Source: Mesorhizobium sp. M3A.F.Ca.ET.080.04.2.1
GTDB lineage: Bacteria > Pseudomonadota > Alphaproteobacteria > Rhizobiales > Rhizobiaceae
Direction: 5' to 3'
DNA: 64,000 bases
Assembly: GCF_003952525.1 (NCBI RefSeq)
Contig: NZ_CP034451.1
Location: 5,060,501 to 5,124,500 of the forward strand
Shown: in pieces, positions 7,405 to 43,823 of the stretch
How positions within the stretch are numbered: the first letter of the stretch is position 1
Layout of the letters: the number at the start of each line of letters is the position of its first letter
Program-made: the position numbers and the translations under genes
The notes under the pieces: generated by a model
Seen by the model: the letters and a program-made list of their open reading frames with translations, nothing else
Databases searched by the model: none
Told to the model about the DNA's origin: nothing

Positions 7405-8931
7405 TCAACTGGGCGTTTCAGCTACGGAGCGGAAGAACGCCTCCGGGCTGTCGATTTCCATCAGCCGCCGTTTGTCAATCAGCCAGAAGCGGTTGCCGAC
7501 GGCGCGGATAAAGGAACGGTCGTGAGAGGCGAGCAGACAGCTTGCCTGATGCTTCAGCAATTCTTGTTCCAGCGCTTCCTGGCCGTCGATGTCGAGGTGG
7601 TTGGTCGGCTCGTCGAGCAGGTAGAAGTTTGGGTCGGTGAGCCTGAGCGCCAGCATCATCAGCCGCGCCTTCTGCCCTCCAGATAGCGCGCCGATCTTGC
7701 GCTCCTGCATCTCGACGGCGACTCCGGCGCCGGCAAGAAGCGAACGGGCGCGTTGCTCGCCGACGTCGAAGGTTCGCGAAAGCATTGCCAGCGGCGTGTC
7801 GGCGTCGCCGATGCTCGACAGTGCCTGGTCGCTGTAACCGAGCACCGTCGATGGCGTCACTTTGATGTTCTGCACTGCTCCGGGCTCGACGATGGCGTTG
7901 CGGATCATGGCGATGAAGCGCGATTTGCCGACGCCGTTGCGGCCGAGCAGCACGATGCGGTCGTCCTGGCAGATGTGGCGTTTGCCCGTCCTGAACAACA
8001 GCGTGCCGTCAGGCATTTCTACCGCCGCATCGTCGAGTGTGATAAGCACTTTGGCGTGGGTGCCGCGGTTCGCCAATCTGATCGCGCCGGCCGAGCGCTC
8101 GCGATGTGCCGGGGTGGCTGCATCTTCCAGCTTCTCGGCGCGTTCCTTGAGCTGTTTTGTCTTCACTGTCAGCAGGTCGCTGCCGGAATTGATACCTATG
8201 TTGTTGAGCTTGGCGGCCTGGCGACGCAATTGCCGGGCGATCTTCATGTCGCGCTTGAACCTGCGCGCCGTCGAGGCGTCGAGCTCGTCGAGCGCATGTT
8301 TGGCGCGAGAATAGGGCAGGGGGAACACCGGCGATTGTTCCGGGCGCAGGAACAGTGTGCGCTTGGTGGTGGCGTCGAGGAAGGCGCGATCGTGGCTGGC
8401 GACGATCACCGGCACCTCGCGCGGCAAAGCGTTGAGCCAGCCTTCCAGCTGACTGATCCTGGCAAGGTCGAGATGATTGGTCGGCTCGTCGAGCAAGAGC
8501 ACGTCCGGATCGGTGACCCAGGCGCGGGCGATCAGCGCCAGCCGCTGCCAACCGCCGCTCAAGGCCCGCATCGGCCGGCCGCGCATTTCCTCGGGCACGC
8601 CGAGTGAATCCAGCACCACGTCGACGCGCCAGAGTTCGCTGTCGGGCTGCTCCGGCGGCAAGGCACCGGCGACGACCTGATGGAAGCTGCGGTCGAACAG
8701 CGCGCCGGGCACGGACTGCTCAACGCGGCCGACGCGCAGGCCTCTCGACCTGGTGATGTCGCCGGCGGTGGCTTCGACCTCGCCGGCCAGACATTTCAGC
8801 AGGGTGGTCTTGCCACGGCCATTGGCGGCGACGATGCCGAGCCGGTCGCCGGAGCCGATGGTGAGGTCGAGGTTGGAAAAGAGCGGCGCACTCATAGTGA
8901 CGCCGAGCGATCTAAGGCTGATCAGGGCCAT
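7405..8931 (-). CDS. ABC-F family ATP-binding protein
   Basis: A 508-aa soluble protein with two ABC ATPase domains and no membrane segments, the ABC-F layout. Domain 1 has Walker A NGRGKTTLL, signature LSGGWQRL and Walker B with LLLDEPTNHLD. Domain 2 has Walker A GRNGVGKS, signature LSGGQKARL and a second LLDEPTNHLD. The linker (about residues 190-270) is basic and helical, as in the interdomain arm that enters the ribosomal E site. Family members rescue stalled ribosomes or protect them from antibiotics. Walker A of domain 1 has Ala instead of the first Gly. The gene is preceded by a 200-nt leader with a 21-codon upstream frame and competing stems (9070-9135 and 8932-9200), suggesting translation-dependent control. 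Confidence 0.92.
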   Translation of the reverse strand: MALISLRSLGVTMSAPLFSNLDLTIGSGDRLGIVAANGRGKTTLLKCLAGEVEATAGDITRSRGLRVGRVEQSVPGALFDRSFHQVVAGALPPEQPDSELWRVDVVLDSLGVPEEMRGRPMRALSGGWQRLALIARAWVTDPDVLLLDEPTNHLDLARISQLEGWLNALPREVPVIVASHDRAFLDATTKRTLFLRPEQSPVFPLPYSRAKHALDELDASTARRFKRDMKIARQLRRQAAKLNNIGINSGSDLLTVKTKQLKERAEKLEDAATPAHRERSAGAIRLANRGTHAKVLITLDDAAVEMPDGTLLFRTGKRHICQDDRIVLLGRNGVGKSRFIAMIRNAIVEPGAVQNIKVTPSTVLGYSDQALSSIGDADTPLAMLSRTFDVGEQRARSLLAGAGVAVEMQERKIGALSGGQKARLMMLALRLTDPNFYLLDEPTNHLDIDGQEALEQELLKHQASCLLASHDRSFIRAVGNRFWLIDKRRLMEIDSPEAFFRSVAETPS

Positions 8932-9200
8932 GTCGATTTCTCTGGTCTGCCCGGAGAAACTCCGGTTGATGCACTTTGACGGTGTGCCGGCAGGCCATCA
9001 GGCCAAACTCGGCGGCACCACGAAGGGCAGACCAAAAATCGAAGCGGGGAAAATCCCGGACCGTCCTGGTCAGCCCTGCAAGCAAGCTCGCAGGGCACAG
9101 ACAGGGCCGCGCTGACGGTGGTGATCGATAGACACGCAGCCCTCCTTTCCAGACGTTCGAGTTAGGAGGTTGGGTATACCGGGAAGGGGCGAATGGCAAG
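8932..9200 (-). promoter_or_regulatory. Structured leader of the ABC-F gene (attenuation-like)
   Basis: Three arms are visible on the minus strand. Arm 1 GGGCTGACC (9068-9076) overlaps the uORF stop. Arm 2 is GGTCTGCCC (9025-9033). Arm 3 GGGCAGACC (8944-8952) lies 12 nt before the ABC-F start codon. Arm 2 pairs perfectly with arm 3 and, with one mismatch, with arm 1, so the two folds exclude each other. A possible promoter is TTGCCA (9194-9199) with TATACC (9173-9178), spaced 15 nt. The mechanism is inference. Confidence 0.5.
9070..9135 (-). CDS. Leader peptide (uORF) of the ABC-F gene, 21 aa
   Basis: A GTG-initiated frame of 21 codons, VSIDHHRQRGPVCALRACLQ then G and stop, on the same strand as the ABC-F gene and 139 nt upstream of its start. 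It has an excellent Shine-Dalgarno (AGGAGGG, 4 nt from the GTG). The peptide carries HH, RQRG, a Pro and two Cys. The last codons lie in a hairpin (GCCCTGC with GCAGGGC), and the stop codon lies in arm 1 of the competing leader structure. Short peptides of this kind precede many antibiotic-responsive ABC-F genes. I do not recognise this sequence and cannot tell what would stall the ribosome. Confidence 0.5.
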   Translation of the reverse strand: MSIDHHRQRGPVCALRACLQG

Positions 9201-9262
9201 GGCCATGTCGGCCGGGAACTGGCCGGGTCATAGCTCCCCAAGGAGAGAAGGTGAAGACGCTG

Positions 9263-12200
9263 TCAGTGCCCTGGGCGCCCCGTCTTGCCGGGCCGGCGTT
9301 TCTGTCGACGCTCGTCGGCCGGATCCTCGTGAGAGCCGATGCCGACGCGCTGACGGACAATTGGTTTGTCGTCGCGTTCTTTCGCGCCTCCCTCTGTCCT
9401 GCCCGTCCTTCGCTGCGGCTGCGCTGCAGCTCCGGAAGGTGAACCGGACATCTTCCCGATTTGGGGGGAAATCGGCTGGGGATTCGCCGGGACCTTTCCC
9501 TCGACGGGCTTTTCCGTGCGGCGCACGGTCATCTCGTCGAGTGAGTTCTTCTTGAACAGCGATTTGCTGGGGTCACCGGGAATGCCGAAGTCGGAGCCGT
9601 GCGCCTCGGCGGCCGACTGCTTCTTGAACAACGAGCGCGACACCGCGCCCGCCGGCGTCGGCATGTCGGTGCCAGGCCCCATGTCGTCGATCGAGGGCTT
9701 GGCGAAGAGCGGCTTCTTCACCGGCATTGCGCCATCGGCGCCCATCTCGTCGAGATGCGGCTTGCGAAACATGTTGGGCCGGGCAGCCTTCGCCGCCTCT
9801 TCGGCGGCGCGTGCTTCGTCGAGCCTGCGGAAACGCTCCTGTTCTTCGGCCGTACGGTGTTTGGCAACGCCCTTGTTGTGCTTGCCCTTCTCACGGCCCG
9901 AGGCGGGACTTTGGCCCTCCACCTCGCGCGCCAGCGGGTCGTCGGAGATGGCAAGTTCCATCTCGCGAAGCCGCTTGATCTCGTCGCGGATGCGGGCCGC
10001 CTTCTCGAAGTCGAGATTGGCGGCGGCATCACGCATTTGCTTGTCGAGCGCCTCGAGATGGGTCTTGAGGTTGTTGCCGACCATCGCGCCGGCATCGTCG
10101 GTGAACTGCGAGATGTCCGCGCGCACATGGTCCTTCTCGTAGACCGAGTCGAGGATGTCGGCGATGCGCGACTTGACCGATTCCGGCGTGATGCCGTTGG
10201 CGGCGTTCCACTCCATCTGCTTCTCGCGGCGACGGTTGGTCTCCGCCATCGCGCGCTCCATCGAGCCGGTGATCTGGTCGGCGTAAAGGATGACCTTGCC
10301 ATCGACGTTGCGGGCGGCGCGGCCGATGGTCTGGATCAGCGAGGTTTCCGAGCGCAGGAACCCTTCCTTGTCGGCGTCGAGGATGGCGACGAAGCCGCAT
10401 TCGGGGATGTCTAGGCCTTCGCGCAAAAGGTTGATGCCGACCAGCACGTCGAAGGCGCCGAGGCGCAGGTCGCGCAGGATCTCGATACGCTCCAGCGTGT
10501 CGATGTCCGAGTGCATGTAGCGGACGCGGATGCCGTTCTCATGCAGATATTCGGTAAGGTCCTCGGCCATGCGCTTGGTGAGGACCGTGACCAGCGTGCG
10601 ATAACCCTGCCCGGTGGTGTCGCGGATTTCGCCGACGACATCGTCGACCTGGGTCTTGGCCGGACGCACCTCGACCGGCGGGTCGATCAGTCCAGTCGGG
10701 CGGATGACCTGCTCGGCGAAGACGCCGCCGGACTGGTCGAGCTCCCAGCCGCCGGGCGTCGCCGAGACCGCGACCGAGAGCGGGCGCATGGCGTCCCATT
10801 CCTCGAAGCGCAGCGGGCGATTGTCCATGCAGGAGGGCAGCCGGAAGCCGTACTCGGCCAGCGTCGCCTTGCGGCGAAAGTCGCCGCGATACATGCCGCC
10901 GATCTGCGGCACGGTGACGTGACTTTCGTCGATGAAGATCAGTGCGTTGTCCGGCACATATTCGAACAATGTCGGCGGCGGCTCGCCCGGCTGGCGGCCG
11001 GTGAGATAGCGCGAATAGTTCTCGATGCCGGCGCAGGAACCGGTCGCTTCCAACATTTCGAGGTCGAAGCGCGTGCGCTGCTCCAACCGCTGCGCTTCCA
11101 ATAGACGCCCTGCCTTTTCAAGCTCTTGCAGGCGATGTTGCAGTTCCTGCTTGATCGACTTGATAGCCTGATTCAAGGTCGGGCGCGGCGTCACATAGTG
11201 CGAGTTGGCGTAGATCTTGACGCTCTTCAGCTCACCGGTCTTCTGGCCGGTCAGCGGATCGAACTCGGTGATCGCCTCGATCTCGTCGCCGAACATCGAG
11301 ATGCGCCAGGCGCGGTCCTCGAGGTGGGCTGGAAAAATCTCGATCGTGTCGCCGCGCACGCGGAAGGAGCCGCGCACGAAGTTAATGTCCTGTCGCTTGT
11401 ATTGCTGGGCGACAAGGTCGGCGAGCAGGGCGCGCTGGTCGAGCCTGTCACCGATCTGCATCTGGAAGGTCATCGCCGTATAGGTCTCGACCGAGCCGAT
11501 ACCGTAAATGCAGGAGACCGAGGCGACGATGATGACGTCGTCGCGTTCCAGCAGCGAGCGCGTCGCCGAGTGGCGCATGCGGTCGATCTGCTCGTTGATC
11601 GAAGATTCCTTCTCGATGTAGGTGTCGGTGCGCGGAACGTAGGCCTCCGGCTGGTAGTAGTCGTAATAGGAGACGAAATACTCGACCGCGTTCTCGGGAA
11701 AGAACTTCTTGAACTCGGCGTAGAGCTGCGCGGCCAGTGTCTTGTTGGGCGCCAGGATCAGCGCGGGGCGCTGCGTCTCCTCGATCACCTTGGCCATGGT
11801 GAACGTCTTGCCGGAGCCGGTGACGCCGAGCAGCACCTGGGTGCGGTCGTTCTGGTCGACGCCCTCGACAAGGTCCTTGATCGCGGTCGGCTGGTCGCCG
11901 GCCGGCTCGAAGTCCGAAACCATCTTGATGGCGATGCCGCCCTCGGACTTTTCCGGCCGGGCCGGCCGGTGCGGCGTCCAGAGCTGGCCGTCCTTGTGCA
12001 GCGGGTTGCCGGATTCGATCAGCGCCGAAAGGGCGGCGACCGTGGCGGTGACGCCGCTGGACGAAACCTGCTCGGCGTCCTCCAGGCTGATATCGAGCCC
12101 GGCGACCGGGTTGAGGCCGGCGGCCGCGCGTTCCTTCGCGGAGGCGGCGCCGCCCATCGAAGTGCCGCGCGCGGTGCGCCCGGGGGCAGCGGAGCGTTCG

Positions 12201-43708: not shown

Positions 43709-43823
43709 CATCTCCAGGGCGCGTTCTCCTCCCATTAGCGCCCCGAGTGTTCCCCTCTGGAGGTTAGCCCTAATCGGCACTTCCAATCAAACTCAGCCGG
43801 ATCTTTACTGATCCGGCTTTTTT
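43709..43823 (+). ncRNA. Candidate trans-acting small RNA with anti-Shine-Dalgarno loop
   Basis: Hairpin GGGCGC (43717-43722) / GCGCCC (43738-43743) presents a 15-nt loop containing CTCCTCCC (43726-43733), complementary to ribosome-binding sites. It is enclosed by CTCCA / TGGAG (43712-43716, 43758-43762). The RNA ends at a 9-bp terminator, AGCCGGATC / GATCCGGCT, with TTTTTT (43795-43823). A -10-like TATATAG lies just upstream at 43701. The pattern resembles the rhizobial alpha-r14/NfeR1 type. No open frame covers it. The rest of 43316-43700 and 43824-44069 shows no gene. Confidence 0.7.
43795..43823 (+). terminator. Rho-independent terminator of the sRNA candidate
   Basis: AGCCGGATC (43795-43803), loop TTTACT, GATCCGGCT (43810-43818), then a T-run to 43823. 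No protein gene ends nearby: lsrB stops 480 nt upstream. Confidence 0.88.

Follow-up and report, generated by a model that had tools for sequence, protein, structure and literature searches.

Is the ABC-F ATPase gene of Mesorhizobium sp. M3A.F.Ca.ET.080.04.2.1 governed by a ribosome that stalls on a short peptide encoded ahead of it? The question was raised by an earlier note on this DNA, which had proposed a leader peptide and mutually exclusive stems in front of the gene. It was examined in the window, that is, the whole stretch of 64,000 nucleotides analysed (contig NZ_CP034451.1, positions 5,060,501 to 5,124,500), and in related genomes. The frame of 21 codons, beginning with GTG behind an AGGAGGG Shine-Dalgarno sequence, was confirmed on the minus strand to the nucleotide, and so were the positions of the three 9-nt arms, the second of which can pair with the first or with the third. 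The features, in window coordinates, are the following.

9195..9200, minus strand: candidate -35 element CTTGCC, by match to an alphaproteobacterial sigma70 consensus
9173..9178, minus strand: candidate -10 element TATACC, after a 16-nt spacer, by match to the same consensus
9140..9146, minus strand: Shine-Dalgarno sequence AGGAGGG of the uORF, read from the sequence
9070..9135, minus strand: leader peptide uORF, GTG start at 9135, 21 codons and TGA (9072-9070)
9087..9096, minus strand: segment 1, the 5' arm of hairpin SL1, within the uORF
9073..9082, minus strand: 3' arm of SL1, overlapping segment 2
9068..9076, minus strand: segment 2 (arm 1 of the earlier note), GGGCTGACC, partner of segment 1 or of segment 3
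9025..9041, minus strand: segment 3 (arm 2, extended), CGATTTTTGGTCTGCCC
8934..8952, minus strand: segment 4 (arm 3, extended), GGGCAGACCAGAGAAATCG, overlapping a weak putative ABC-F ribosome-binding site
7405..8931, minus strand: ABC-F ATPase, 508 aa, ATG at 8931

The uORF encodes VSIDHHRQRGPVCALRACLQG, in which the selected core (see below) reads RQRGPV, and 138 nt separate it from the ABC-F ATG. Arm 1, at segment 2, overlaps the uORF stop. Arm 2 as first described (GGTCTGCCC, 9033-9025) pairs at 9 of 9 positions with arm 3 (GGGCAGACC, 8952-8944) and at 8 of 9 with arm 1, the exception being one U-U. The arms of the proposed three-arm switch are thus real, but the segments number four: a 10-bp hairpin within the uORF, SL1 (9096-9087 with 9082-9073), had been overlooked, and the last stem is longer, joining 9041-9025 to 8952-8934 across the putative ABC-F ribosome-binding site. 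With SL1 and this longer stem, the leader has the layout of a four-segment attenuator, in which either 1:2 and 3:4 form, or 2:3. Translational attenuators of the ErmC type consist of a short uORF and a leader that refolds between 1:2 / 3:4 and 2:3. The same elements are found here, namely a hairpin 1:2 overlapping the uORF, a stem 3:4 over the downstream start and an alternative pairing 2:3. Folding of the 251-nt leader was compared with that of dinucleotide shuffles, giving a z of -3.4, with 1 of 200 shuffles equally good. A regulatory leader in front of the ABC-F gene is real, and larger than first described.

No Rfam family was found in the leader, the region 8700-9500 giving four sub-threshold matches with E from 1.1 to 9.8. 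In the whole window, a single Rfam match reaches the gathering score, the Alphaproteobacterial ar15 sRNA at 43710-43823. At 9370-9476, inside the 3' end of the long uvrB frame, there is a dispersed repeat that is matched many times throughout the genus.

Conservation of the uORF and arms in close relatives had been named beforehand as a test of the proposal, and 21 of 25 same-genus genomes, the source genome included, carry the leader at the same position. It was not found in three others in the same-genus search (G005, G012 and G023). The last, G003, holds a remnant (L208 80-365) with a degraded Shine-Dalgarno sequence, a shifted frame and neither segment 3 nor segment 4, and there the ABC-F gene is deleted to its last 47 codons. 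Since the leader is present in 21 of 25 genomes and also far beyond the genus, it is not a chance arrangement.

A first covariance model, running from the uORF core to segment 3 and built from the 21 same-genus leaders, matched 63 of 397 genomes of the order at E 0.05. Three of the weakest loci (L098, L100 and L101, first-model E 0.017-0.029) were rejected, having no such peptide and no ABC-F gene close downstream; their genomes gave no match with a second model, built from 77 leaders. This second model matched 62 of the 397 genomes, all 62 with an ABC-F orthologue. When the same genomes were searched at the protein level, 69 gave a match at E 1e-80, six of these being other ABC-F proteins (32-37% identity). 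The remaining 63 genomes have an orthologue at 51% identity or above, the limit being set at 50%. Of these, 62 are leader-positive by the second model, and in the last one (G116) a divergent leader with the peptide MIMAHRICLLWFGPRFALHVSS was detected at E 1.6e-4 without filters. The leader is present, then, in 63 of the 63 orthologue-bearing genomes of the order. It was not found at E 0.02 in the remaining 334 under stricter filters; such filters were applied in searches over 40 genomes and lose weak matches, so these misses are not proof of absence.

At the level of the class, 13 of 385 genomes matched, the window's own included, and the other 12 matches all precede the orthologue. At the level of the phylum, 20 of 369 matched, all of them inside the class, and the two additional ones also precede the orthologue. 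Among the 80 ABC-F loci of named genomes in the matches listed, the five at 59-73% identity all have the leader (Rhizobium mongolense, R. ruizarguesonis, Aminobacter aganoensis, Brucella pseudintermedia and a Rhodospirillales bin), and none was found at the 75 listed with 25-33% identity. The orthologue also occurs on 12 plasmid records (Ketogulonicigenium 4, Sinorhizobium 2, Rhizobium 2, Pararhizobium 2, Shinella 1, Gemmobacter 1), and the 10 of these that were examined all have the leader. The leader goes closely together with a single ABC-F clade of the Alphaproteobacteria.

At some loci the gene behind the leader is altered. A 400-aa minus-strand frame, which we take to resemble a transposase, separates leader and ABC-F gene at one of them (L076 1505-3400). 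At four others (L016, L059, L014 and L008) the ABC-F frame appears interrupted or internally shortened behind an intact-looking leader.

The protein itself is a genuine ABC-F factor: two PF00005 stretches were found in each of three orthologues, LSGG-type and DEPTNHLD-type motifs are present in both halves of the alignment, and the helical interdomain linker (P-tIM) and the overall ABC-F fold were recognised. Among the best 25 of 188 families, no curated resistance-family cut-off was reached (NF000355, 283 bits versus 380), and for Sal, Vga, Msr, Lsa and the rest of these 25 the scores were far below the respective cut-offs. The patchy distribution of the gene (63 of 397 genomes) is at most compatible with a drug-resistance role.

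The presence of the uORF in many leaders allowed selection on the peptide to be estimated by pN/pS, from pairwise counts that ignore relatedness, in 87 of 88 leaders (L113, whose register is shifted and reads RQPV, was omitted; L076, whose gene is displaced, lay outside the 88). The six core codons gave 0.31 and the GP pair 0.01, against 1.12 and 1.36 for the same stretch in the two other frames. Gly is present in 87 of 87 leaders and Pro in 86, with all four synonymous codons in use for each. The residue following GP is Val or Ile in 83 of 87 and Pro in none, and the one preceding it is Arg in 74, the remaining leaders having Tyr, His, Cys or Phe; RGPV accounts for 56 leaders and RGPI for 17. 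Of the 87, 77 have Arg at codon 2 (analysis numbering) and 74 at codon 4. The stretch N-terminal to the core varies in length and sequence, placing the Gly of GP at residue 9 to 16. One set of loci was picked by the string AGGAGGGC, whose invariance in that set holds by construction. As judged from these codon changes, the leader peptide is under selection at R-[QT]-R-G-P-[VI].

The earlier note had placed the sensor elsewhere, in VCALRACLQG, and this proved to be the wrong part, because codons 9-11 are bound in hairpin 1:2 and, with a pN/pS of 0.85, show no selection at the level of the protein (all 87 leaders have GCC as codon 9), and only 12 of the 87 carry Cys at codon 8. Neither the Cys nor the decapeptide was retained as a sensor: conservation is seen there only where the hairpin dictates the sequence. 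In two leaders (L115 and L112) the uORF terminates right after GP-x-x-A-L, so that these two seem able to do without the remainder of the peptide.

Could it be that only the RNA structure is conserved, the frame being incidental? Part of the uORF is indeed locked by hairpin 1:2, as codons 9-11 illustrate. Yet the core lies outside the hairpin, and its pN/pS is low in the reading frame but exceeds 1 in each of the two others, relatedness being ignored. A Shine-Dalgarno sequence also precedes the frame, its best match being 6/6 in 73 of 88 leaders and 5/6 in 12, with the start codon picked to maximise this match and L076 excluded. An incidental frame is extremely improbable. The conserved Arg and Pro codons would suit a sensor of amino-acid starvation (Pro, Arg or Cys), a reading that we consider very unlikely: there is a single conserved Pro codon, every synonymous Gly and Pro codon is used, Cys at codon 8 is rare and the gene behind the leader is not a biosynthetic one.

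The R-x-R in the core is also a macrolide arrest motif, and it may act as such here. However, Arg is not universal at either of its two positions (77 and 74 of 87), and, by our count, a stall at R-Q|R would leave segment 1 uncovered.

The helices were then examined for compensatory changes. In an alignment that had been fitted to 1:2, 98.1% of the 747 cells of helix 1:2 were paired. Double changes numbered 62, a figure reached by 0 of 500 shuffles, whose mean was 18. Two of five measures failed against the shuffles: pairs with double changes and pair types (59 and 68 of 500, respectively). Helix 2:3 was paired in 97.8% of 599 cells; its changes were mostly one-sided, and the one double change in 599 cells was matched by 112 of 500 shuffles.

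In a second test, the segments of each leader were paired with their own partner and with those of distant leaders. It used 51 representatives of 86 leaders, dereplicated at 85%, with cross pairs at 65% identity or less and relatedness otherwise unmodelled. L112 and L113 were omitted, L076 was outside the set, and segment 3 of L096 and L097 was positioned manually, the ends of these two having been misaligned by the model. For 3:4 the own partner was stronger in 42 of 51 (p 1.4e-6) and weaker than the cross partners in 9. For 2:3 it was stronger in 40 of 51 (p 0.003), a small effect with a median percentile of 0.43, and for the control pairing 2:4 in 20 of 51 (p 0.26). By these comparisons, helices 1:2 and 3:4 coevolve, and 2:3 weakly. 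The alignment check called for by the earlier note thereby gave a conserved GP core, coevolving helices 1:2 and 3:4 and weak coevolution of 2:3. At the Brucella pseudintermedia locus, segments 2, 3 and 4 all differ from those of the window and both pairings are retained. One leader (L020, about 1745-1805) has a palindromic insert of some 50 nt between the segment 3 region and segment 4.

Would a stalled ribosome free the ABC-F start? A ribosome covers about 15 nt downstream of the first base of its P-site codon. A stall was simulated with Pro in the P site, this footprint hiding most of segment 1. In transcripts ending before segment 4, pairing 2:3 exceeded one half in 50 of 51 representatives with the ribosome and in 1 of 51 without it. 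In full free leaders at equilibrium, 3:4 pairing above 0.3 was obtained in just 34 of 51, and simulated stalling lowered it in 27 of 51. Mean openness of the start region went from 0.348 to 0.376 on stalling, with an increase in 54 of 88 leaders (L076 excluded), and in the window's own leader the equilibrium 3:4 pairing was 0.81 both free and stalled. Release of the ABC-F start at equilibrium is weak across leaders and absent in the window. Since the window's 3:4 does not open at equilibrium, either kinetic trapping, with 2:3 forming first and holding, or another output, such as transcription, would be needed.

If the output were transcription, the leader would decide whether transcription terminates, through Rho or at an intrinsic terminator, and not whether the ribosome-binding site is accessible. 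This would agree with the window's start not being released in the simulation, and there are precedents: several Gram-positive ABC-F leaders work in this way, in part at least, as passages of PMC10201436, PMC12421871 and PMC10314930 describe, and a Sinorhizobium uORF does so for a DUF1127 gene, according to a passage of PMC12218461. We nevertheless regard transcription attenuation as unlikely, as no terminator-like site was found on the minus strand of 8850-9350, and segment 4 overlaps the start region and coevolves with segment 3.

A transcription start downstream of the uORF would leave the leader out of the message. A candidate promoter upstream of the uORF speaks against this: CTTGCC-N16-TATACC, which we take to resemble alphaproteobacterial sigma70 promoters. 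Scored against the sigma70 consensus, 22 of 52 leaders reached 9 or more of 12 and 12 had no match, the mean being 6.25 versus 2.8 in shuffles. A generic scan found no promoter.

The explanation that we favour, and hold to be rather likely, is that the leader acts in cis on an accessory ABC-F gene, as an attenuator that senses ribosomes and in which a pause at Gly-Pro lets 2:3 form and exposes the start. Under free translation, hairpin 1:2 would re-form and 3:4 would sequester the ABC-F ribosome-binding site, leaving the gene off. A ribosome pausing at the Gly-Pro of R-x-R-G-P-V/I, or at the next codon, would have its footprint over segment 1; the freed segment 2 could capture segment 3 during its transcription, and segment 4 would be left open for the ABC-F protein to be made. 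This protein would in turn act on stalled ribosomes, closing a feedback loop. The trigger would most likely be a drug at the peptidyl transferase centre or in the exit tunnel. A ribosome stalled on the small peptide probably turns the ABC-F gene on. In favour of this explanation we also count the decayed leader of G003 and the pairings retained at the Brucella pseudintermedia locus. The anatomy is that of a translational attenuator. What the sequences show is the leader, selection on its peptide, the alternative helices as features of the sequence and a strict linkage to the gene; pausing, the trigger, the kinetic order of folding, induction and operation in the cell are what we infer.

The same switch could have an intrinsic trigger, a slow Gly-Pro bond whose pause the ABC-F protein relieves. 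SecM, for instance, measures secretion capacity, and the leader would gauge the sufficiency of the ABC-F factor rather than a drug. GP is the most conserved element of the peptide. RGPP and RAPP peptides arrest ribosomes (PMC12992588), YfmR lowers stalls at proline (PMC11990639) and EttA works on MgtL when Pro occupies the P site (PMC11282234). On the other hand, GP is followed mostly by Val or Ile and never by Pro, the preceding Arg is not universal (Y, H, C and F also occur), and an accessory gene, in 63 of 397 genomes, fits drug defence at least equally. We consider an intrinsic trigger possible but doubtful, and as it shares the anatomy of the drug-triggered explanation, the confidence given to the one and to the other does not sum to one. 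An equally tentative proposal is that [R/Y/H]-G-P-[V/I] is a new intrinsic motif, pausing ribosomes without a drug and relieved by the ABC-F protein, the gene being on when stalled ribosomes outnumber the factor.

The proposed attenuator resembles ErmC and MsrDL in its short uORF, its refolding leader and a target that protects or acts on ribosomes (for MsrDL, passages of PMC10314930). It differs from both in the peptide, here R-x-R-G-P-V/I, and in the host group, and its stall and drug are putative. In the same passages, macrolides bring about the stall on MsrDL, the MsrD protein keeps down its own expression, and MsrDL works by blocking an intrinsic terminator, unlike the leader proposed here. 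A uORF and a refolding leader also precede the ABC-F genes cplR, vmlR, vmlR2, lsaA, tiaA and are5sc. As passages of PMC10201436 and PMC12421871 have it, cplR combines translational and transcriptional attenuation, these Gram-positive uORFs are mostly of 3-4 codons (MRI, MIN, MK[L/Q], MAGN), with nine in tiaA, and stalling, tested or predicted, is at or near the start. In our leaders, in contrast, GP comes later, with its Gly at residue 9 to 16, and conservation of the core is at the peptide level.

With the RAPP/RGPP and SecM arrest peptides, the leader shares an Arg-Gly-Pro in a short peptide upstream of a controlled gene (passages of PMC12992588). It differs in having Val or Ile instead of a following Pro, in an Arg that is not universal and in the ABC-F gene downstream. 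Membership of the RAPP/RGPP class, defined by Arg-Ala/Gly-Pro-Pro at the arrest site, was rejected, since GP has no Pro behind it in any of the 87 leaders. The DUF1127 attenuator of S. meliloti is likewise a rhizobial uORF linked to the antibiotic response, with a different gene and a different mechanism, in the passages of PMC12218461. Among the open-licence papers listed, judged by their titles and the opening of their abstracts, none described the leader, and no description was found in passages of PMC6723617, PMC10219788, PMC5776109 and PMC10117765. As far as these searches go, it is apparently undescribed, and akin to the Gram-positive ABC-F attenuators.

These leaders provide a widespread Gram-negative case of apparent leader-peptide control over an ABC-F gene, and the conserved motif in their peptide indicates where ribosomes would probably stall. 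Given its close association with a single ABC-F clade, this motif provides a candidate substrate for a factor that is so far uncharacterised, and what this ABC-F protein senses becomes a testable question.
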